A DNA stretch of 64,000 nucleotides from positions 342,334-406,333 of the forward strand of contig JAURXZ010000049.1 in the NCBI GenBank assembly GCA_030654175.1, written 5' to 3'. The DNA is from Bacteroidia bacterium (GTDB lineage Bacteria > Bacteroidota > Bacteroidia > 2-12-FULL-35-15). Under the pieces are notes generated by a model, which did no database searches, was not told the origin of the DNA, and saw nothing but the letters and a program-made list of their open reading frames with translations. Position numbers and translations under genes: made by a program. This document shows, in pieces, positions 4,689 to 37,277 of this stretch (position 1 is its first letter; the number at the start of each line of letters is the position of its first letter).

Positions 4689-7685
4689 TTAGGTTAATGG
4701 TATTGAAATATAAACTAATGTTCCTTCGGGCTCATTGCTTGCATTCGTTTTATCAATATACTTTACAGTAATATTTGTATTTTTTATATAATTGATAATT
4801 TTCATCCGCTCTTCTGTATTACTCATCCCTATTGATTTTCTTTTTTCTGATAAATTGTTTTTCATTTCAAAAGAACGGGTTCGGCCAATTCCGTTATCCT
4901 CGATCTCTATTATCAAATTTTTTCCATTGGGTACAAATGTTAAATTTAAAATTCCATCTTTTCCTTTTGGCCATAAACCATGATGAATCGCATTTTCAAC
5001 ATAGGGCTGAAGTAACATGGTTGGAATTTCAATGTTTTCAATATCTAAGGAGGGGTCAATATTTAAATTAAAAACAAAATTATGATCCACTCTTAATTGT
5101 TCCAGTTCTACATATAGGGATATTAAATTTATGGCCTCTGTCAATTGCATATACGCGGATGAAGAATGTTCTAAAGATAACCGGATCAATTTTGAAAATT
5201 TCCCTAAATATTTATTCGCTGCAATTTTATCATCAGTGGCAATAAATAATTTAATAGAATTCAGGCAATTAAAAATAAAATGCGGATTCATTTGTCCTTG
5301 AAGTGCCTTTAGCTCCAAGGTTGCATAATTTTTATTTATTTTAGTCTTGGATTCTTCTTTTTTGCGAATATTTTCTATTCTAAAATAAATGAGCGTTAAA
5401 AATGCAACTACTAATAAAACAGATACAATAATATAAAATGGAAGTGTTTTCCAAAAAGGGAAAGGGATGTTAAATGCGATAGATTGTTCTTTATTAATGG
5501 CAGTATTCACGCTTCCATATATTCGAACCCTGAATACATATTTACCTGGCGATAAACCCAGATAGCTTGCAAATCGTGCTTTTGTTGGATTCCCCCATTC
5601 CTGATCTTTACCATCCAGCTTATATTGGAATAAAATATTTTTGGATTTAGTGAAGATCGGAGCGGTGTATTGAAATTCAATTTTTTTAATATTCCTTGAT
5701 ATTTCGAAAAGTGAATCAGTATAAATTAATTTATTTTCATCTACTAAAATTTTTTCAATTGTTAATTCCGGATTGTAATTTACTTTACCTGTTTTTTTTG
5801 TATCCACAATGGCTACTCCCGCCAATGTAGGAAACCATATATGGCCATCAGTATCTTTCAACCCCGCAGGCTGAAAACCACCGGTACATTCCGAGTTTTT
5901 TAGTCCATCTTCTCGGCCATAATGTATGGTATTTAAAAACTGACTTTCACCGTCAGCATATTTGTTTAGATCGTTCCGCTTTATGGAATAAATTCCATGG
6001 TCGGTGCTTATCCAAAAATTGTCATCATCATCTTCCAGGATACAAGATGTAAAATCATCCATAAAGTTTTTCGATTGATTAAAAACGGAAAATTTATCAT
6101 CTTTAAAACGGTTGATACCACCTCCATAAGTGGCAATCCAAATGCTGCCTTCTTTATCTTCATAAGCATAACGTATATCGTTATGAGATAATCCGTTTTT
6201 TGTAGTATACATATCCACTTTTCCGTTTTCAATAAAACCTAATCCGTTTTTTGAACAAAACCAGATCCTTCCTCTTCGATCCTGAGTAATGTGCTTAACA
6301 GTACCGATCAATTTATTATCTCCAAATGAATTGAATTTTCCATTTTTAAAAGTATATATACCGGCATCGGTTCCTACCCAAATTACACCTTGATTATCCT
6401 GAAACAAGCTCAGGACAATATTGTTGGATTGATTAGCATTAAGAGGGAAATGTTCGTAATTCCCATTTTTATAACGGTATAGCCAATTTCCATAGGTTCC
6501 GATCCAGTAATTGTTTTCGTTATCCTCCAGCAGGGACCATACACAACCTATCTCCGGTTTATTAAAACGGGAATATTTTATATCTTTAAATTGTGTGATG
6601 CCTTGACAAAAATTTGCTATTAAGATGGAATTATCCTTGGTTTTGATTATCGCTCCAACGGCATCTGACAACAAACCGTCTTTGGCGGAGTAAGAAGTAA
6701 ATGTTTTTAATTTCATTTTGTTGACTCCGGCATCCGATGTGCCAACCCATAAATTTTGCTCTCTGTCCTCATAAACAATAGATAAATTATTGGAGGATAA
6801 TCCGGATGTTGTGTTATAAAAAGAAATAGTTCCATTAACTAAATGTGTTAATCCACTTTTTGTAGCCACCCATATATTTTCATCATTATCGACAAGGAAA
6901 TCTGTTAATGATCCTTGCTCCTTTAGTTTCTCAGGAAGTTGGTATTCGCTATAAATGCCATCTATTAGCCGAAAAAGCCCTGAATTTGTGGATACCCAAA
7001 GCTTGTTTCCGGGACTCTTTTTTATAAAAAATACTTTTTCTTTTATCTGCGGAATTAATATAAGTTGTTTGTTCTTATACCTGTACAATCCACTAGTTGT
7101 GCCTATATGCAAAGAGCTATCACTTAAATTATACTGGATTTTAGTAAGTTTGATGGAATCAATCGGCAATTTTAAAAGAGGAGAAAAATCCCCGTCAATT
7201 AACTTAAATATTTTATTATTTTCTGTGCCAACTACTAAATCGCCATTTTCATTTTCACACATGTCTTTTACTGTAGTGTTTTCATCGCCATTAATGGTAA
7301 CAGTTTCGAAGGTTCCTTTGTGATACTTTAGTAGTTTACCATTTAATGTAGCCATCCACAAAACACCATTTCTATCCTCAACAAAATTTTTAATGCTATT
7401 ATTTGGTAAACCTGTTGTATTTAATGTATTAAACAATTTTAATATTATTCCATCGTAACGTAACAATCCATTAAAAGTAGCTATCCATAAAAAACCGGCT
7501 TTTGTTTGAAAAATTTTCAGAATGGTATTTTGTGGTAAACCGTTTTCTGAATTAAAAGTCTCTACCACATAATTTGTATTCACTTCTAAGCTCTTTTCTG
7601 AAATAAAAGGTACTTGCGCTGTGGACACAAGAGTTCTCAGAAGTAATGCTACTAACAGGTATTTGAATATTCGGGAATAAAACAT
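4689..7685 (-). CDS. Propeller-type sensor histidine kinase (LytS-like output)
   Basis: 998 residues with an N-terminal signal peptide (about 1-24). About fourteen two-component-regulator propeller repeats (about 35-660) follow, each with a pattern like VxEDxxGxLWIGTxxGLxRY, which should build beta-propellers in the periplasm. Next come a Y_Y_Y immunoglobulin-like domain (about 675-735, with FQYKLDGKDQEW and SPGKYVFRV) and a single membrane segment (about 743-763). The cytoplasmic part is a His_kinase (PF06580 type) module with the phospho-acceptor His in QMNPHFIFNCLNSI (about residue 801), and an ATPase with N-box NAIHHG (about 895) and G-box DNGIGRTRS. The periplasmic region presumably senses a ligand, as in the polysaccharide-sensing propeller kinases of Bacteroidota, but the ligand is unknown. 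It is co-transcribed with the LytTR regulator. Confidence 0.92.
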   Translation of the reverse strand: MFYSRIFKYLLVALLLRTLVSTAQVPFISEKSLEVNTNYVVETFNSENGLPQNTILKIFQTKAGFLWIATFNGLLRYDGIILKLFNTLNTTGLPNNSIKNFVEDRNGVLWMATLNGKLLKYHKGTFETVTINGDENTTVKDMCENENGDLVVGTENNKIFKLIDGDFSPLLKLPIDSIKLTKIQYNLSDSSLHIGTTSGLYRYKNKQLILIPQIKEKVFFIKKSPGNKLWVSTNSGLFRLIDGIYSEYQLPEKLKEQGSLTDFLVDNDENIWVATKSGLTHLVNGTISFYNTTSGLSSNNLSIVYEDREQNLWVGTSDAGVNKMKLKTFTSYSAKDGLLSDAVGAIIKTKDNSILIANFCQGITQFKDIKYSRFNKPEIGCVWSLLEDNENNYWIGTYGNWLYRYKNGNYEHFPLNANQSNNIVLSLFQDNQGVIWVGTDAGIYTFKNGKFNSFGDNKLIGTVKHITQDRRGRIWFCSKNGLGFIENGKVDMYTTKNGLSHNDIRYAYEDKEGSIWIATYGGGINRFKDDKFSVFNQSKNFMDDFTSCILEDDDDNFWISTDHGIYSIKRNDLNKYADGESQFLNTIHYGREDGLKNSECTGGFQPAGLKDTDGHIWFPTLAGVAIVDTKKTGKVNYNPELTIEKILVDENKLIYTDSLFEISRNIKKIEFQYTAPIFTKSKNILFQYKLDGKDQEWGNPTKARFASYLGLSPGKYVFRVRIYGSVNTAINKEQSIAFNIPFPFWKTLPFYIIVSVLLVVAFLTLIYFRIENIRKKEESKTKINKNYATLELKALQGQMNPHFIFNCLNSIKLFIATDDKIAANKYLGKFSKLIRLSLEHSSSAYMQLTEAINLISLYVELEQLRVDHNFVFNLNIDPSLDIENIEIPTMLLQPYVENAIHHGLWPKGKDGILNLTFVPNGKNLIIEIEDNGIGRTRSFEMKNNLSEKRKSIGMSNTEERMKIINYIKNTNITVKYIDKTNASNEPEGTLVYISIPLT

Positions 7686-8507
7686 TTTATATTGAATAAA
7701 TAAGACAAAAAAATTCAGAGCAAACAGAAAAACTGAGATTATTTTTTAGATAATGTCATTGGCAAAAAGTGATTTTAAAGAAAAAAAAAATTCTGTTATA
7801 TAATCAACGCCTTATTTAACTCAATATTCTTGAAGCAAATGAAAGTAGTTTTTTTTAATTACTAATAATCGAAAGTAAAATTAAGGAAAAAATACTACTG
7901 TTTGTGATTATACCCAATATGTGCATATAAGAGGGTATGTGAAAGAGGATAGTCTATCCGACTTTAAATAAAATTTTAAGTCTTTTCTAAATTAACTTCA
8001 TTAGTATGAAAAAAATCTTCTGTCCAAATTAATAAAATTGGGCAGATCAATCTTTTTCGAATCCCGATTAATAATTAATAATAGTGAAAAAATTTGATGA
8101 TGTTAAAGAGTTATGATTTGAGCATTGAGCTCCTGGATCGTGGTAGAAGTTTGATGACATTTTATTTTGAGTATCAAAGAAATGTTTATGTGTGAATGTT
8201 GTAACTTATTATAATAGTAGTGTAACACTTGCCGGCATTTACTTGTTGACCTTTGTTGTATGAATTGATCTATGGGAGTTTCAAGACTGAGATAAGCGAC
8301 AAATTGAAAACAAAAATCAAGTGTATGGGAAACAACATAAACTATACAATTGTAATAATCGAAATAATTTCAATTTTCAACTTACTCGATGAAGCCAAAT
8401 TTAACTCACTTGTTCTTTAAACAACTCGCCTGTTAATTGGTTAAAAAGTCACGGAGTATAGTTTTTAATTTTAATAAAAAATTTAACAATAAATTCATTC
8501 ATAAGTC
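7686..8507. other. Long regulatory gap between the kinase gene and the surface-protein operon
   Basis: 822 AT-rich bases separate two divergent transcription units, so promoters of both must lie here. No gene is supported: the longest tidy plus-strand frame noticed is 32 codons from 8097. No copy of the window's palindromic repeats was seen. The length is unusual for this window and leaves room for regulator sites or a long 5' leader. A possible promoter for the plus-strand operon is listed separately. Confidence 0.5.
8437..8466 (+). promoter_or_regulatory. Possible Bacteroidota-type promoter of the surface-protein operon
   Basis: TTG at 8437-8439, then 19 bases, then TAGTTTTT at 8459-8466. 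This resembles the Bacteroidota -33/-7 pair (TTTG / TAnnTTTG) with one mismatch in the -7 box. It lies 41 bases before the ATG. The call rests on the motif alone. Confidence 0.35.
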
Positions 8508-11500
8508 ATGAGAATTTCTTATAAACGATTTTTTATCAGCCAATTTTTTTTATTGGCTTTAATATTGCCACTTTCCACCATAAAAGCTGCTGTATTTTCA
8601 GGTGTATATCCTGTTGGAAATTCAGCTCCTTTATATACAAAGATAAGCCAGGTGGCTGATTCATTGGATAATGCGACAATAACAGGTAATGTAATTTTTG
8701 AATTACAATCTGATTATGATGGAACTGTTGGTGAAGTTTTACCTATAACGTTTAAACAATTTATTGTTTCAGGAGGCAGTTGGACCGTTACCATAAGACC
8801 CGCTGCCGGAGTTACTTCAAGGATTACATCAGGAGATCCAGGTTCTTCACTTTCTTTGATTCAATTAAACGGAATCAATAATTTAATAATAGATGGAAGA
8901 CCAGGAGGAGTGGGTAATTCAGAATGGACTATTCGAAACACGAGAGCGATAGCTCCTGTTGGTTCTGTTTTTACCTTTATTAATGATGCAACTTTTAATA
9001 CATTAAGTTATTTATCTATAGAAGGACAAACTCCATCCGGTTCAGGTTTGATTCTTTTCTCCACATCTACTGCTACATTAGGTAATAGTAATAACAGTAT
9101 TTCAAATAATTTGATACACGATCGTACTGATTTCCCTGGTTTTCCGGGCGTTGCGATCTATTCTGCGGGCAGCAACACAGCAAGAAATAAAAATAATAGT
9201 ATTATCAGCAATGACCTCTACAACTGGGTAAATTATGGTATCAATATTTCACCGGGTGGAAATGGCGAAGGGTGGCAAATTACTGGAAATAATTTTTACA
9301 ATACTCAAGCTACAAATTCATTGAGTCAAACTTCAATTCAATTTTTGGCTGGTGCTTCTTCATTTTCAAATACAATTTCGGCTAACTATATTGGAGGCCA
9401 AATGCCCGGAGCTGCAGGAGGCCCATGGAGTAATTCCGGTGCTGCTGCATTTAACGGTATCATTACTAATGTAGGGACAACAGGAGCTACAACGATCTCT
9501 AATAATTTCATTCAAAATATATCTTTAACAAGTACAAGCACTTCTTCTTTTACCGGTATTTCTTGTGCTGCAGGTTCTATTGTAATTACAGGAAATACAA
9601 TTGGTTCTTCTTCAATACCTTCAAGTATTACTATTGCGGGATCTTCAACTTTTACAGGTATTAATACTTCCACTGCGGGCAGTTCAACTATTCAAAATAA
9701 TACTATCGAATACATTTCCTCTTCGGGAGTTAGCGCGGGGGCTCAGGTTAGAGGTATAGTTTGTGCCGGTACGGGAATTAGCAATGTTACCGGAAATAGT
9801 ATTTCTAATCTTTCGAGTGCATGCTCCTCTACAAGTAATACTTCAGCTGCATTAACAGGTATTTATATTAATAGCTCAGCTGCAGGCCAGCTTTATTCTT
9901 TTAATTCTATTCATGCACTTATTGGGACTAATTCAAGTGCAAATACCGCTGTGCTTGGAATAACCATATCTAATACAGGGAGCGGTTCCATTCTTTCAAA
10001 CAGAATTTTTGATCTTTCCAATAGTACCTCAGGCAATTTAGGGGGGCTTGCAGGAATCTTTCTTTCAGGTGGGAATTGGGGCCTTACTAATAATATGATC
10101 TCGCTGACGAATACATTTACAAATGATATTTCTGTAAAAGGTATTTGGGATAACTCAACAGCTACAAGCACAAATAAGTTTTACCATAATTCAGTTTTTA
10201 TTTCCGGATCCGGGAATATCACAAATCTGACATACGCTTTATTAAGAAGTGGTAATTCAACGGTTTCAATAAAAAATAATTTCTTATATAACAACAGATC
10301 GGGCATATCCAATTACGCATTGGGCAATACTTCCGGAACTCCTGCAACTGGTTGGGCCAGTGGTGCTTCCAGTAATAATTTTTTTGTAACCGATCAGGTA
10401 AACTCTGTAAACGATTGGGGGAATGGTTCACAATCCTTCATTAGTTGGAAATCGATTTCTCATAGCGATATTAATTCTTATTACGAAACAACCAATAACA
10501 TAACCCCTGCTGTTTTTGTTAATCCAATTTCAGGGAATTTAAAAATAAGCCTGTCTTTTGCTGCCAGTGCTTCAAATCTTGAATCACGAGGAGTTGTAAT
10601 TTCGGCTGTTACTAATGATGTTGATAATGACTCAAGACCAGGTCCTATCGGTTCTATCAATGGCGGTGGCACTTTACCGGATATTGGAGCTGATGAGTTT
10701 GATGGAGTTCCTTTTACAAAAGATATTGGAGTTACAGCTTTGATTTCTCCTTCTGTTTTTTCTTGTCCGGGTTCATCTGAGTTAATTCGATTTAAAGTTA
10801 CCAATTATGGATTACCAATAAATCTGGCTACTGATAATATTACTATTAATTCATCTGTTAATGGACCTAATCCTATTGCATTTTCTCCGATAGTGCTTAA
10901 TTCGGGAACTTTGGAAAGTGATTCAAGTATCATTATTACAGCATCTTCTTCTTATGATATGTCTGCAACAGGAACTTTTACTTTTTATGCATACTCATCA
11001 TTTTTAGGTGATACCTATTTCAATAATGATTCATTACCTCCTGTTGCAATTACCCTTACACAAATTGTGGCCTTACCGGTAACGAATGACTTTTCGGGAT
11101 TTACAGGAACGAACCTTACAGGTGTATTTCCTGACTGGACTGAAGCGGCAGGAACTATACCAACAGGCACAACTTCATTATGGATTTCACAAACAAATAT
11201 GGGCGGATTAGGGAATACATCTGCGAGAATTAATCTGTATTCGACCGCAAAAAATGAATGGACTGTTGGTCCGAAATTTAATGCTACAGCAGCAACAAAA
11301 TTAAGATTTTCGGCCGCAGTCACAGTGAAAAACTCTACAACAGCGTCAGCAGTTATGGGTTCTGATGATGAAGTTAAAGTGATGCTTTCAACTGATTGCG
11401 GTCTATCTTGGTTTCCAGTATTTACGATGAACAGTTCATCAAATCTGTCGCAAATTTTAACTTCTCAGGTTGTTCCACTTGGTATGTATGCAGGGCAACG

Positions 11501-31324: not shown

Positions 31325-33376
31325 ATGAACAATCCATTATTGCAAAAATTTAATACTCCATTTAATACTATTCCGTTCGAAGAAATTAAATTGGAACATT
31401 ATAAACCTGCTATTGTAACCTCTATTGAAGCAGGGAAACAAGAAATTAAGGCGATAAAAAATAATCCTGAAACTCCTGATTTCAAAAACACAATAGAAGC
31501 TTTAGAAAGAAGCGGCAAAACGTTGGATGTAGTCTCCAGCATTTTTTTTAATCTGAATAGCTCCGAAACGAGTGATGCTATGCAGGCAATTGCTCAGGAA
31601 GTATCTCCTTTGCTTTCTGCTTTTGGTGATGATATTTTAATGGATGATGAATTATTTAAAAGAATTAAGGCAGTTGTGGAAACTACCGATGCAGATAAGC
31701 TTTCCACAGAACAGGCAATGCTGTTGCAAAAAACGTATAAAAGTTTTGTAAGAAATGGTGCTAATTTAGATGATGTATCTAAAGAAAAGCTTAAAGAATT
31801 GAATACTAAATTATCTAAACTAAGCCTTACTTTTGGTGAGAATTTATTAAAATCCTCCAATAAGTTTGAACTTTGGATCACTGAAGAATCTGACCTGGCT
31901 GGGCTTCCGGAAGGTGTTAAAGAAGCTGCTTTAATGGCTGCAAAAAGTAAAGGCAAAGAAAATGCCTGGTTAATTACCTTAGATTATCCTTCCTATATAC
32001 CTTTTATGATGTATGCCGATGTTAGGCAACTAAGAGAGCAGTTATACAAGGCGTTTGGTTCGAGATCATTTAATAACGATGAGTTTAATAATGAAGAAAT
32101 TGTTAAACAAATTGCCATTGCAAGACACGAAAAAGCCAATTTGTTAAATTATGTTTCTTATGCCGCTATTGTGCTTGAAGAACGTATGGCGGAAACAGCT
32201 GAAAATGTGAATAATTTATTAAATGAATTGCTGGAATATGCAAAACCCATTGCAATAGAGGAATTACAGGAAGTTCAGAACATGAGTAACATGTTGGGCG
32301 GCCCTTCAGCAATGGAACGTTGGGACTTTTCTTATTATTCAGAAAAATTAAAAAATGAAAAATTTGCTATCAATGATGAAATTCTAAAACCATATTTTCA
32401 ACTGGAAAAAGTAATTGAAGGCGCTTTCATTACCGCTGAAAAATTATACGGTATCACATTTGAAAAGCGAGATGATATTCAAACCTACCACAAGGAGGTA
32501 ACAACCTACGAAGTGAAAGACGAAAAAGGAAAACATCTGGCTGTTTTTTATGCTGATTTTTTTCCACGCGAAAGTAAAAGAGATGGTGCATGGATGACCT
32601 CTTTCAGCGGACAAAATAAATATGATGGAACCGAGCAACGGCCACATGTTTCAATAGTTTGTAATTTTACCAAACCCACAGAAACAAAACCTTCCTTGCT
32701 TACCTTTAATGAAGTAACAACGTTGTTTCATGAATTCGGACATGCTTTGCATGGGATTTTTGCCGATGGATATTTCGAAAGTTTAAGTGGAACCTCTGTT
32801 TATTGGGATTTTGTGGAGCTTCCATCACAATTGATGGAAAACTGGTGTTATGAAAAAGAATGCCTGGAATTATTTGCCAAACATTACAAAACAAACGAAG
32901 TAATTCCTATTGAACTGGTTCAGAAAATAAAAGACAGCGCTAATTTTATGAGCGGTTACCAAACCCTGCGCCAGATAGGATTAGGCAGATTGGACCTGGC
33001 TTGGCATAACCTGGCAGAGTTGCCAACAATTTCAGTAAGTGAGTTTGAGGCTAAGGCAACTAAAGAAACGGACTTATTCCCTCCTCTAAAAGGAATTAAT
33101 TCATCCTGTGCTTTTGGACATATTTTCCAGGGAGGATATGCTGCCGGTTATTATAGCTATAAATGGGCTGAAGTATTAGAGGCAGATACATTTGAATACT
33201 TTTTAGAAACCGGTATTTTTAATAAGGAAACAGCAAAAAAATTTAAAGATAATATCCTTTCCCGAGGCGGAAGCGAGCATCCAATGCAGCTTTATAAAAA
33301 ATTCAGAGGGCAAGAACCTTCTACCAAACCTTTGCTTAGAAAAAGCGGATTGTTGAAGAATGAGAAGGTGAGCTAA
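31325..33376 (+). CDS. dcp: Peptidyl-dipeptidase Dcp-type M3 metallopeptidase
   Basis: 683 residues, the usual Dcp length (about 680). The zinc site HEFGHALH lies at about 468-475, and the third ligand Glu is in YFESLSG about 25 residues later. SVYWDFVELPSQLMENW and the C-terminal GHIFQGGYAAGYYSYKWAEVLEADTF (quoted in part) are typical of the M3 family. No signal peptide is seen, so it is probably cytoplasmic and recycles peptides by releasing C-terminal dipeptides. M3 also includes oligopeptidase A (PrlC); the DFVELPSQ block and length favour Dcp, but the exact specificity is not certain. It is monocistronic. Confidence 0.87.
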   Translation: MNNPLLQKFNTPFNTIPFEEIKLEHYKPAIVTSIEAGKQEIKAIKNNPETPDFKNTIEALERSGKTLDVVSSIFFNLNSSETSDAMQAIAQEVSPLLSAFGDDILMDDELFKRIKAVVETTDADKLSTEQAMLLQKTYKSFVRNGANLDDVSKEKLKELNTKLSKLSLTFGENLLKSSNKFELWITEESDLAGLPEGVKEAALMAAKSKGKENAWLITLDYPSYIPFMMYADVRQLREQLYKAFGSRSFNNDEFNNEEIVKQIAIARHEKANLLNYVSYAAIVLEERMAETAENVNNLLNELLEYAKPIAIEELQEVQNMSNMLGGPSAMERWDFSYYSEKLKNEKFAINDEILKPYFQLEKVIEGAFITAEKLYGITFEKRDDIQTYHKEVTTYEVKDEKGKHLAVFYADFFPRESKRDGAWMTSFSGQNKYDGTEQRPHVSIVCNFTKPTETKPSLLTFNEVTTLFHEFGHALHGIFADGYFESLSGTSVYWDFVELPSQLMENWCYEKECLELFAKHYKTNEVIPIELVQKIKDSANFMSGYQTLRQIGLGRLDLAWHNLAELPTISVSEFEAKATKETDLFPPLKGINSSCAFGHIFQGGYAAGYYSYKWAEVLEADTFEYFLETGIFNKETAKKFKDNILSRGGSEHPMQLYKKFRGQEPSTKPLLRKSGLLKNEKVS

Positions 33377-33410: not shown

Positions 33411-33474
33411 TAGGCATAAACAAAGCAACACTTAAATAAACGCTATGAGTAGCGTTTATTTAAATGTTGGTGGC
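33411..33474 (+). repeat. attC-like hairpin element 1 with GTTGGTGGC end
   Basis: The near-perfect hairpin at 33426-33469 has 20-bp arms (CAACACTTAAATAAACGC against the matching arm, one mismatch) and a 4-base loop. It runs into GTTGGTGGC at 33466-33474. The same 9-mer ends the element at 34430-34512. It has no T-run, so it is not an ordinary terminator. Confidence 0.6.
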
Positions 33475-33692
33475 TTAAGTGGGAAGAAAGAAAAGCCATA
33501 TTTTCATAATTAAAACATTTTTTTTACCTATACATCCCGAAAAAATTATTTGTACCCGGACTTTTTTAACGCTTAGACTTTTTTGTTGAAATGAAACTAA
33601 GGAGTCACGACCATCAGGTGTTTTTCCCCTTCGCAATTGCAAATACTTCTGTTTGCATTGACAATGATTACATAAAAAAAAAAAAAAACAAC

Positions 33693-34232
33693 ATGAAAAA
33701 AACAACCATTCTATTTGTACTTACAGCCTTAGTTGCTTGTAACCAAAACCCAAATCAAGAAACAAAAAACACCAAAGTGCTTTGGGCGGAAAGTGCCAAG
33801 TCTATTCTACCTATGGAAGCAGATACTTCGTGGAGTATAGAGGTTTGGATTGCTGATTCTATACAAAAAGAAAAAATATTTTCATCCATTACTCATGCTG
33901 TTTTATCAGGTAAATTGAAAGCGTATGCGGATTATCCAAATAAAGAATTTACTGTGCAAGAATTTAAGAACACTTTAGTGAAATGGGATTCGTCAGTTGT
34001 TGTTGAAGACCCAAACAATTCAGGTGTTATGATTAATGCACCACTTTTAATTGAATTAACTCCTGATAATATTGTACAAATAAATTTTAATGAAAAAATC
34101 GAGTTTGATACTTTATCCTATACTATAAACAAAAAGGTTTCAATAGTCTCATTTTTCAGTTATAAATATAATGCAAACTGGGAACTTTGTAAGGATAACA
34201 AAAAAGTATTTGATGTCAAACTCAACAATTAA
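33693..34232 (+). CDS. Orphan lipoprotein, candidate cassette gene
   Basis: 179 residues from ATG 33693; the open frame continues 34 codons upstream, but the signal peptide and the lipobox LTALVAC fit the ATG. The lipidated Cys is about residue 16. The mature protein is charged, soluble and mixed alpha/beta, with SWSIEVWIADSIQKEKI and a C-terminal FDVKLNN, and belongs to no family I recognise. A run of 14 As just before the start could vary by slippage. It lies between the two hairpin elements that end in GTTGGTGGC, with about 1 kb between the two ends, which is the size and content expected of a mobile gene cassette. Confidence 0.7.
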   Translation: MKKTTILFVLTALVACNQNPNQETKNTKVLWAESAKSILPMEADTSWSIEVWIADSIQKEKIFSSITHAVLSGKLKAYADYPNKEFTVQEFKNTLVKWDSSVVVEDPNNSGVMINAPLLIELTPDNIVQINFNEKIEFDTLSYTINKKVSIVSFFSYKYNANWELCKDNKKVFDVKLNN

Positions 34233-34429
34233 TTAAACCATAAATAAGAAAAGCATTGGAATAAGTGTAAGCACTTTTTGTATTTAGGCAATGGAAGTAC
34301 ATTTCAATTTATTTCAAAACGCATTTAGACAATTTTATGCGCCATGAGAGTTTTGTTCTTTTTTAGACAGTTTTATAGTTTTAAGAATTCATAGAAATGG
34401 ATTTTATTTCCCTGAATAAAGGACTTACA

Positions 34430-34512
34430 GCCGCTAACACAAAATATGCAATACCTTTTCTAAAACGCTCAAAAGGCTAATGCACGGCATCGCATATTTG
34501 AACGTTGGTGGC
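34430..34512 (+). repeat. attC-like hairpin element 2 with GTTGGTGGC end
   Basis: The outer arms at 34430-34449 (GCCGCTAACACAAAATATGC) and 34492-34512 (ending GTTGGTGGC) pair over most of their length with a few bulges. An inner stem CCTTTT/AAAAGG and an unpaired spacer lie between them. The terminal boxes GCTAAC and GTTGG pair as the R boxes of attC sites do, although they do not match the strict RYYYAAC/GTTRRRY consensus. Confidence 0.6.
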
Positions 34513-34527
34513 AATTAAGAACACATC

Positions 34528-34767
34528 TTAAAATACTCCAAGCTCATCTTTATTTTTATCCTGATAACCAAATTCGTCATCACCTAATCCCTTACCATTG
34601 TATTTGCCATACTTTAATATGGTATATACCATCCAAAAAATTAAAAATGGTGAAAACAAGAGCATACCTATTGCAAAACTTAATGTTGATTCAAATTGAA
34701 GTAATACACAATAAATAAATACGTATAAAGTCACAAAAACAATGGAAAAAGTATCATTACGTAACAT
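34528..34767 (-). CDS. Small two-helix membrane protein, unknown
   Basis: 79 residues. Two hydrophobic segments (about 6-22 and 28-50) are followed by a short charged tail with GKYNGKGLGDDEFG and several acidic residues. No family is recognised. It is on the strand opposite to the lipoprotein gene and lies just beyond the second GTTGGTGGC element, so it may be another cassette gene whose outer border is lost. The ATG is at the end of the frame and no alternative is better. Confidence 0.5.
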   Translation of the reverse strand: MLRNDTFSIVFVTLYVFIYCVLLQFESTLSFAIGMLLFSPFLIFWMVYTILKYGKYNGKGLGDDEFGYQDKNKDELGVF

Positions 34768-35084: not shown

Positions 35085-37277
35085 ATGATGAAAAATTATG
35101 AAAGTATGAAATCATTAAAATATATTTTTGAACCTCGTTCTGTGGCAGTTATTGGAGCTTCTGCTACAGTAGGCACCATTGGAAATGCAATTTTCTCTAA
35201 CATCCTTCAATCTTTTTTTAAAGGTATTGTATATCCTGTAAATCCAAAGTACGACAGTATAATGAGTGTCCGGGCTTATAATAATGTTATTACAATTCCC
35301 GATTCAATTGATCTGGCCGTTATTGGAGTTCCTAAAAAGGCTGTTAAAAATGTTATAAAACAATGCGCTGAAAAGGGAGTAAAAGGAATAGTACTGATCA
35401 CTGCCGGTTTTAAAGAAATAGGTGAAGAAGGAAAAAAATTAGAAGAGGAAATTACTGCGCTTGCCAATAAAAACAATATCGCTTTATTAGGCCCCAATTG
35501 TTTAGGGATCATAAATACACAGGAAGAGATCAGCCTGAATGCGAATTTCGCCATTAGTATGCCACGGGCCGGCAATGTTGGTTTGATCTCCCAAAGTGGT
35601 GCTATTGGTGTGGCTGCGCTAGGATATGCGTATCAGCACGGCTTGGGCATTTCAAAATTTATTTCTATTGGAAACAAGGCAGTAGTGGATGAAAGTGATG
35701 TATTGGAATATTTGATTGATGACGAGGAAACACAAATAATAACGATGTATGCCGAAGATATCGATCATCCTGCACGGTTTTATGAAATGGCAAATAAAGC
35801 AAATGCAAAACAAAAACCAATTATAATAATTAAAACAGGCAGGTCGGTTAGAGGGGCTTTGGCTATTCAATCTCACACCGGGGCCTTATCAAGTTCCGAC
35901 ACTGCATACGATTCGCTTTTTGCTCAATGCGGAGTTATTCGTGTTGAAACTCTTGCACAATTATTTGAATATGCAAAAGGATTTACCTCTTTGATCCGTC
36001 CGAAAGGAAATCGGATTGCAATTGTTACCAATGGAGGAGGAATGGGTGTTATTGCTACGGATGCCGCTGAAAGAAATGGTTTGGAAATGGCAACCTTCGA
36101 ACCTGATACGCTGCAGGCCTTAAAAATAGTATTGCCCGGAACAGCCAATAGCCATAACCCTGTGGACATAATTGGTGATGCTGATGCGCAACGGTTAAGT
36201 GATACACTTGATGAAATTGTTAAGGATAAAAATGTGGATGCAATTGTTGTTTCCGTTACTCCAACCGTGGATACGGATATGAATGCTGTTGCGGCCAACC
36301 TTTGTGATTTTGCAAAGGCCAATCCTGAAATGCCTCTTTCAGCCAACCTCATGTCCCTTAAACCGGAACCCTCATTTTTAGAGTTATTGAAAAAAGCAAA
36401 TATTCCCTATTTTGATTTTCCTGAAACCAATATCAGAGTGCTGGCCGCAATGATAAAATATTATGAATGGATAGATCGCGCACCTGTTAAAATTGAAAAA
36501 TTTGAAGTAAAGAAAAAAAAGGCGCATGAACTTTTAGATTCTATTAAAAAAGAAAGGAGAACACGATTTACCGAACCGGAATCCTATCAGCTTTTGGAAG
36601 CCTATGGAATGAAGGTGGTGGATTACCGGTTTGCAAAAAAACTGGATAATGTTTTAATTGCTGCAAACCAGATTGGTTATCCTGTTGTTTTAAAAATCGT
36701 TTCACCTGATATATTACATAAAATTGATATTGGCGGATTGAAGATAAATTTGAAAGATGATAATGAATTAAGGAAAGCTTATCATGAAATTAATGAAAGT
36801 ATAAAAAATAAAAAAAACGATTTCGAAATTCACGGGTTTTTAATTCAAAAATATTTTACTGAAAAAGGTATTGAATTAATTGCAGGAGCCAATTTAATAA
36901 AAGGCTTTGGTTCTCTTATTATGTTTGGTCTTGGTGGAACGTTTGTTGAGTTGTTTAAAGATGTTGCATTCCGGTTAGCTCCGCTTAACAGGCATGATGC
37001 GCTCAATATGATCAAACAAACCAAAGGTTATCAGATCCTGAAAGGTTTCCGCGGGCAGGCTTCTTATGATATAGAATCTATTATTGATTACCTGTTGAGA
37101 TTATCTCAATTGTTGATGGATTTCCCTGAAATAAAAGAACTGGATCTGAATCCTATTAAAGTATTGGAGGATAATAAAGGAATTGTAATCATGGATGCAA
37201 AGGTTATTCTTGATGAGAGTATTGTGTCCATGGTAAAGCCAAAAATAAAATTGAAAGAAGTAGCTCTTGATGTTTAA
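35085..37277 (+). CDS. Acyl-CoA synthetase (ADP-forming), fused alpha-beta type
   Basis: About 731 residues. ATG at 35085 is chosen; 35073 (TTG) and 35106 (ATG) are also in frame, and the family begins close to YIFEPRSVAVIGAS. The order is CoA-binding Rossmann domain (about 10-110), succinyl-CoA-ligase-like domains with QSGAIG and the phospho-His region QSHTGALSSSDTAYD (about 260-275), then an ATP-grasp domain (about 500-725) with QIGYPVVLKIVSPDILHKIDIGG (quoted in part) and LIMFGLGGTFVELFKD. The family makes ATP from acetyl- or acyl-CoA plus ADP and phosphate, or runs the reverse. Fused proteins of this length (AcdAB type) are common, and no acetyltransferase domain is attached. Substrate chain length cannot be told. 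Confidence 0.88.
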   Translation: MMKNYESMKSLKYIFEPRSVAVIGASATVGTIGNAIFSNILQSFFKGIVYPVNPKYDSIMSVRAYNNVITIPDSIDLAVIGVPKKAVKNVIKQCAEKGVKGIVLITAGFKEIGEEGKKLEEEITALANKNNIALLGPNCLGIINTQEEISLNANFAISMPRAGNVGLISQSGAIGVAALGYAYQHGLGISKFISIGNKAVVDESDVLEYLIDDEETQIITMYAEDIDHPARFYEMANKANAKQKPIIIIKTGRSVRGALAIQSHTGALSSSDTAYDSLFAQCGVIRVETLAQLFEYAKGFTSLIRPKGNRIAIVTNGGGMGVIATDAAERNGLEMATFEPDTLQALKIVLPGTANSHNPVDIIGDADAQRLSDTLDEIVKDKNVDAIVVSVTPTVDTDMNAVAANLCDFAKANPEMPLSANLMSLKPEPSFLELLKKANIPYFDFPETNIRVLAAMIKYYEWIDRAPVKIEKFEVKKKKAHELLDSIKKERRTRFTEPESYQLLEAYGMKVVDYRFAKKLDNVLIAANQIGYPVVLKIVSPDILHKIDIGGLKINLKDDNELRKAYHEINESIKNKKNDFEIHGFLIQKYFTEKGIELIAGANLIKGFGSLIMFGLGGTFVELFKDVAFRLAPLNRHDALNMIKQTKGYQILKGFRGQASYDIESIIDYLLRLSQLLMDFPEIKELDLNPIKVLEDNKGIVIMDAKVILDESIVSMVKPKIKLKEVALDV

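Follow-up and report, generated by a model that had tools for sequence, protein, structure and literature searches.

The feature by which integrons are identified is an integrase carrying a special domain, which is considered necessary for handling the folded attC. The title of a study cited in PMC2426708 presents the IntI-specific domain as necessary for the activity of integron integrases. Bacteroidota are included among the phyla that carry integrons (PMC8618304), and those reported for Bacteroidetes comprise a complete integron in Salinibacter ruber and In0 elements consisting of IntI only (PMC9024848). In the open literature, subscription papers aside, nothing closer to the Bacteroidota system described below was found.

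The window analysed here is a stretch of 64,000 nucleotides from a Bacteroidia bacterium. It includes a short block for which the original prediction, made by reading the nucleotide sequence, had proposed the layout of an integron cassette. We conclude that this block very probably represents a single gene cassette from a Bacteroidota capture system of the integron type and occupies a dispersed attI-like site, with dcp on one side and an acyl-CoA synthetase gene on the other.

Results

Structure of the cassette block

The features of the block and its flanks are the following.

31325-33376, plus strand: dcp, left flank (ORF; annotation from the first reading and the sequence)
33426-33474, plus strand: w1, attI-like insertion site 3′ of dcp (sequence, fold and core likeness)
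33426-33469, plus strand: hairpin of w1, perfect 14-bp stem
33452-33474, plus strand: core of w1, GCGTTTATTTAAAT followed by GTTGGTGGC; putative exchange point between G33466 and T33467
33467-34504, plus strand: cassette, 1038 bp, from TTGGTGGC... through the G of the w2 right box (delimited by the spacing of the two junction boxes)
33693-34232, plus strand: cassette gene, putative lipoprotein of 179 aa (ORF)
34430-34512, plus strand: w2, attC-like site (covariance model R1, 73 bits; R2, 56 bits)
34430-34438, plus strand: left box of w2, GCCGCTAAC, then spacer ACA
34442-34449 and 34492-34499, plus strand: stem arms of w2, AAATATGC and GCATATTT, with the loop (34450-34491) between them
34504-34512, plus strand: right box of w2, GTTGGTGGC, preceded by spacer GAAC
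34528-34767, minus strand: two-helix ORF of 79 aa after the cassette
35094-37277, plus strand: acyl-CoA synthetase (ADP-forming type) gene, right flank (ORF)

Sequence and fold confirmed that w1 and w2 are structured elements, both terminating in GTTGGTGGC (33466-33474 and 34504-34512), with a spacing of 1038 bp and one ORF enclosed. When folded as single-stranded DNA, both were better than dinucleotide shuffles (z = -6.3 for w1 and -2.4 for w2). Both elements had been described as attC-like hairpins, and covariance models had been suggested as a check. This description held for w2, a clear match to both models, but w1 gave only a weak, partial match to R1 (21.5 bits, E 0.04), no full-length match to R2, and has an attI-like core.

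The ORF at 33693-34232 has a lipoprotein-type N-terminus. As predicted, its product was not recognised; a Pfam search with the 179-aa sequence returned only GldN, below the cut-off (E 7e-4). Homologues are present in many congeners. In one of them, G015, the gene is present as two tandem copies flanked by two attC-like sites. At the other homologue loci that were checked there was no attC match nearby, so the lipoprotein is regarded as belonging to a captured gene family, not to a cassette-only one. The orphan two-helix ORF said to follow w2 is present, but it does not form part of a cassette. Downstream of w2, the window contains neither a GCCACCAAC left box nor a further attC-like match to models R1 and R2; no second attC-like site encloses this ORF, which is outside any closed cassette. 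Orthologues of the acyl-CoA synthetase were found in congeners (74-77%) with dcp not nearby. In the search for an empty site, dcp was absent from the searched flanks of the relatives that have the synthetase, and no relative was syntenic. Neither an empty site nor movement of the block between strains was observed.

The attI-like sites

Cassette arrays that are not preceded by an attC have their junction in a shared sequence, approximately TTACAA..AAACATGCGTTTATnnAnTT followed by GTTR. Such attI-like array starts were found on contigs C6, C27 and C44 of the same genome and in the congener G017, with variant forms on C21 and C31. These sites are located directly 3′ of ordinary genes and no recombinase is adjacent. 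The w1 core, GCGTTTATTTAAAT followed by GTTG, has the same layout as these sites (GCGTWTATRNANTT followed by GTTR) and as the attI identified on C32. This core and the position after dcp led us to read w1 as an attI-like site, which on sequence grounds is more likely than an attC. Two attI-like leaders on different contigs, L113 (about 8440-8600) and L326 (about 7360-7524), have a block of about 150 bp in common. A TATATTTG box and a hairpin resembling a terminator lie within it, as though the landing platform itself had been copied.

The attC-like family

A homologue of w2 with a compensatory change in the stem was found on contig C19 (locus L025). Model R1 identified further copies on C19, C21, C31 and C6 and in congeners G015, G017 and G022, and pattern and locus searches added congener G027. 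From left to right, the sites consist of NNNNNYAAC, the spacer ATN, a first stem arm, a loop of 9-147 nt, the second stem arm, the spacer NNCC and GTTRNNNNN. They show the attC features of AAC and GTT ends, paired L boxes, an unpaired central spacer and a variable terminal structure. In an alignment of 31 sites, AAC and GTT were (nearly) invariant and the C before GTT was conserved in at least 90%; its counterpart in attC is the conserved G next to AAC on the bottom strand (PMC2727003). The inner stem was 97% paired, and compensatory changes with both sides altered occurred at 6 of its 8 pairs. The outer boxes were 78% paired, with the lowest values at the three middle letters, an imperfection that is expected if, as in integrons, the following cassette completes the right box. 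The outer 8 pairs are symmetric, with one pair mismatched in some sites; this outer stem has no single-base bulge, and the asymmetry seen lies in the spacers, which have 3 and 4 bases. All 55 right boxes were GTTR and only 5 fit the R box consensus of attC, GTTRRRY, in agreement with the original observation that the boxes depart from the strict consensus.

The prediction had also taken GTTGGTGGC as the signature of the hairpins, a proposal that had to be discarded. This sequence occurs 49 times in the genome, compared to 31 times for the reversed pattern, a mild enrichment, and most of the copies are in coding DNA; the non-coding hairpin copies are those of w1, w2 and the C19 cluster. In the family, no right box is more frequent than GTTGGTGGC. 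The true box is GTTRNNNNN, the variable letters of which are copied from cassette to cassette.

Model R2, built from the cores of the 31 sites, matched 8 of the 36 genomes of the genus. A model for this sequence type of attC found matches in 3 of 296 genomes across the phylum, suggesting that the letters of attC are lineage-specific and that only the chain rule described below travels. No Rfam family fits the hairpins, and no exact attC motifs were found in the viral contigs searched. On the minus strand of C19, attC-like sites at 7297-7383, 6395-6449 and 4649-4702 of L025 have unrelated orphan genes between them. Different genes between hairpins of this type, which had been named as a check, were thus found elsewhere in the genome and also in congeners. 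One C19 cassette contains, in its non-coding part (L025, 6474-6803), five degenerate copies of a repeat spaced by about 54 bp.

Complementarity between consecutive sites

The chain rule states that each left box, when reverse-complemented, gives the right box of the site before it. Of 16 consecutive site pairs, 13 followed it exactly, while the mean after shuffling was 1.6 and none of 10,000 shuffles reached the observed value. The left box matched the right box of its own site in only 1 of 16 cases, and the expected 9-mer was found within 4 kb upstream 35 times and downstream once. Cassettes that end in an attC with a left box complementary to their own start, a criterion for integrons, were therefore present in the arrays. 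The left box complements the start junction of its own cassette and not the adjacent right box, which is the pattern left by cassettes that were closed and joined at G^TT. For the window cassette, 7 of the 9 letters match; from the w2 left box, reverse-complemented, GTTAGCGGC was expected and GTTGGTGGC was found, a difference of two transitions.

A generic finder that combines the chain and the stem detected 46 units in 740 kb of loci from the genus and 1 in a scrambled control, and none in 391 kb from other organisms. A second set, composed of 20 loci from outside the genus and plasmids, contained 41 same-strand chained units compared to 4 in the control. As the class 1 plasmid record has a single cassette, it provided no positive control for this test.

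Integrases associated with the arrays

As originally noted, there is no integrase adjacent to the block, and the same is true of most arrays in this genome. The integrase, attI and first attC were located on C32.

C32:159996-161085, minus strand: IntI-like integrase (IntI-like match)
C32, junction at 161223: attI, TTGCGTATAATATAGA followed by GTTATGCCG, on the divergent side of the integrase
C32, ending at 161727: first attC-like site, the left box of which, GCAGCATAAC, fits the attI junction with one mismatch

Congener G033 has the same arrangement plus a chained unit. On C44, the array has an attI-like start and three attC-like sites, and the left boxes GGGCATAAC and then ACCTATAAC continue the chain.

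The suggestion that a tyrosine recombinase could be linked to such arrays was borne out in congeners and in other Bacteroidia; on C32, the recombinase adjoins an attI and a first attC. In congeners G026, G025, G008, G006 and G010, arrays are directly downstream of IntI-like recombinases; the G026 gene ends 100 bp before four chained cassettes. A short tandem coding repeat (CSLNKRPCSVNKR) lies upstream of the G026 integrase (L240, 7367-7853). Many integrase genes are located 100-140 bp from a contig end with their 3′ end towards the break (G399:C19, G450:C21, G049:C16, G510:C6, G047:C132 and G050:C24, among others), as if the assemblies stop at the attI or at a repeated array.

No integrase from this genome or from the 36 genomes of the genus passed the TIGR02249 cut-off. 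The IntI-like recombinases of the genus match this model on both sides of a gap at about profile positions 181-239, and the array-linked enzymes score 180-199 bits, compared to a cut-off of 265 and a score of 508 for IntI1. The distance between KGxKDR and HxLRHS is 58-61 aa in the array-linked enzymes, 66 in a XerC/D-type protein encoded on C51 and 100 in IntI1. The array-linked integrases are therefore missing about 40 residues, which correspond to the IntI-specific domain, and do not belong to the IntI subfamily as defined by it. Their best family is NF040815 (227.6 bits for the G010 enzyme; cut-off, 220), and the best relative of solved structure is XerA (5hxy), with IntI4 in third place. 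In a tree, they are apart from two Xer proteins; long branches leave the position of IntI1 unfixed.

Relatives of these recombinases were detected in 129 of 247 sampled Bacteroidia genomes. The family is wide, only some members are linked to arrays and many have no array nearby. Within the genus, there was no clear association between the presence of an IntI-like recombinase and this sequence type of attC, because other congeners carry other types. Of the 20 loci from outside the genus, about 15 have an attI core near 100 bp past the integrase stop codon, and about 10 of the 13 loci with more than 2.3 kb downstream had at least one chained unit. The same layout was found on plasmids of Chryseobacterium sp. 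SNU WT5 and Rufibacter tibetensis. On plasmid 1 of the latter (L386, 10267-15862), the integrase is followed by eight genes in the same direction, mostly hypothetical, and by chained attC-like sites. In 27 leaders the attI core, nTATAAAcaA followed by GTTA, lies mostly 77-111 bp after the integrase stop codon; their consensus is TngCgcaTATAAAcaAGTTA. Thus, as in integrons, an attI is found beside the integrase at the start of the array.

Cargo and putative promoters

Most cassette genes have no Pfam family; those recognised encode AbiEii, two PIN domains and a TPR protein. In the cassette regions of L295 (1943-4386) and L118 (1673-4322), the cargo includes a PIN toxin, an AbiEii toxin gene pair and a gene resembling those of DNA methyltransferases, next to which is a gene of unknown family.

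The -7 box of Bacteroidota is TAnnTTTG. Within 74 sites, which are related to each other, this motif occurred 28 times in sense and never in antisense orientation, compared to about 4 and 8 in shuffles. The sense-only boxes sit in the attC-like loops (for example, L025, 7297-7388, and L110, 6579-6739), where they could perhaps act as promoters for the next cassette. About 10 of the 27 leaders also have TAnnTTTG immediately 3′ of the integrase stop codon, and it occurs in several attI-like leaders; these boxes are candidates for the cassette promoter Pc.

Discussion

The original prediction spoke of a lone cassette block of a Bacteroidota recombination system in which structure is conserved and sequence is variable. 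The different genes between hairpins and the recombinase-linked arrays agree with this proposal. Its working seems to be that of an integron, and we classify the system as a new integron variant since it departs from the strict definition in the integrase domain and in the GTTRRRY box.

The sequences show that each cassette ends in an attC-like site that can form a hairpin from one strand, with outer boxes NNNNNYAAC and GTTRNNNNN, that the cassettes had been closed and joined at a single point within GTTR, and that arrays start from attI-like sites. In the mechanism that we propose, the enzyme would be the IntI-like tyrosine recombinase that in several genomes adjoins attI and an array and on C32 adjoins attI and the first attC; it would cut at G^TT and recombine a double-stranded attI with a folded single-stranded attC. 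As the IntI-specific domain is missing, we can only infer that the array-linked integrases recombine a folded attC. The lipoprotein cassette would have been inserted in the window in trans by the C32 integrase. The block may be fixed or still excisable, and it may be expressed from its own promoter or by read-through from upstream.

Other explanations must be weighed against this reading. The block could be a two-attC fragment of a once longer array, a CALIN-like relic, in which w1 is a true shortened attC. The perfect 14-bp stem of w1, its AAC and GTT boxes, its partial match to R1 and its right box, the commonest of the family, point in this direction. However, in addition to having no full-length R2 match, w1 lacks the typical spacer asymmetry and its stem runs into the boxes, whereas its core (GCGTTTAT... 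followed by GTTG) fits the attI-like sites and, like them, it follows a housekeeping gene. We therefore regard this explanation as possible but rather unlikely. It is considerably less probable that canonical integrons from other bacteria imported all of the cassettes, which would now be inert attC clusters without an integrase (CALIN). Such an origin would agree with the failure to find an integron integrase above the curated cut-off in the 36 genomes and with the fact that most arrays of this genome have none adjacent, but not with the integrase and attI on C32. In congeners and other Bacteroidia, arrays built alike come immediately after a dedicated recombinase with an attI, and right boxes that so seldom fit GTTRRRY are unlike those of canonical sites.

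Because they are repeated, intergenic and located after genes, the hairpins could instead be terminators or scattered palindromic repeats (REP/MITE, or ends of the IS200/IS605 type) that have no role in cassettes. Repeats of this kind do not predict that a box complements that of the preceding site across 0.5-4 kb of unrelated DNA, a relation that exceeded the control again in the second, independent set. No Rfam family fits the hairpins, and no transposase was linked to the arrays read in the genus. This origin is highly improbable.

Returning to the integron-type reading, we consider it likely that integrons of this kind are widespread in Bacteroidia, with IntI-like integrases devoid of the IntI-specific domain, their own attI and attC, satellite attI-like sites within the genome and sometimes promoter-bearing attC loops, and that they were overlooked because searches require the domain. 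Arrays with integron logic behind such integrases make the need for the domain directly testable. They also open a large pool of cassettes in a phylum for which few complete integrons have been reported in surveys. The plasmid copies in Chryseobacterium and Rufibacter imply that the system can travel, and the toxin-antitoxin-like and many orphan-family genes in the cargo suggest that it may be a main route by which Bacteroidota shuffle unknown genes.

Among known systems, REP and IS200-type repeats are dispersed hairpins with unrelated neighbours, unlike the sites described here, in which complementarity between neighbours is far above the control. The integrons reported for Bacteroidetes (PMC9024848) share with this system the phylum, in its older sense, and the idea of a capture platform; however, they were found with IntI models, while the present system is below the TIGR02249 cut-off and occurs in Bacteroidia. 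The window block and several other arrays of this genome resemble CALIN in having no adjacent integrase, but they differ in that an integrase and attI exist elsewhere in the genome and that several arrays begin at their own attI-like site. A CALIN is defined by two or more attC sites that the published covariance model recognises, with no integrase near; the window has one clear attC-like site by our own models. The best family for the array-linked recombinases, NF040815 of NCBIfam, is named XerA-type or "site-specific tyrosine recombinase/integron integrase". Unlike what the name alone would convey, the enzymes considered here are linked to attI and cassette arrays, and they differ from the family by extra N-terminal domain(s) of about 100-200 residues. 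With respect to class 1 and chromosomal integrons (IntI, attI, attC and Pc), the integrase lacks about 41 residues, scores below TIGR02249 and usually points towards the array, the right box is GTTRNNNNN instead of GTTRRRY, and the outer 8-bp stem has no single-base bulge. Both kinds of systems share an integrase adjoining attI, cassette arrays, the chain complementarity, attC sites with two box pairs, an unpaired spacer, a variable terminal loop and a C before GTT, and a cargo that is mostly unknown or related to toxins and defence.
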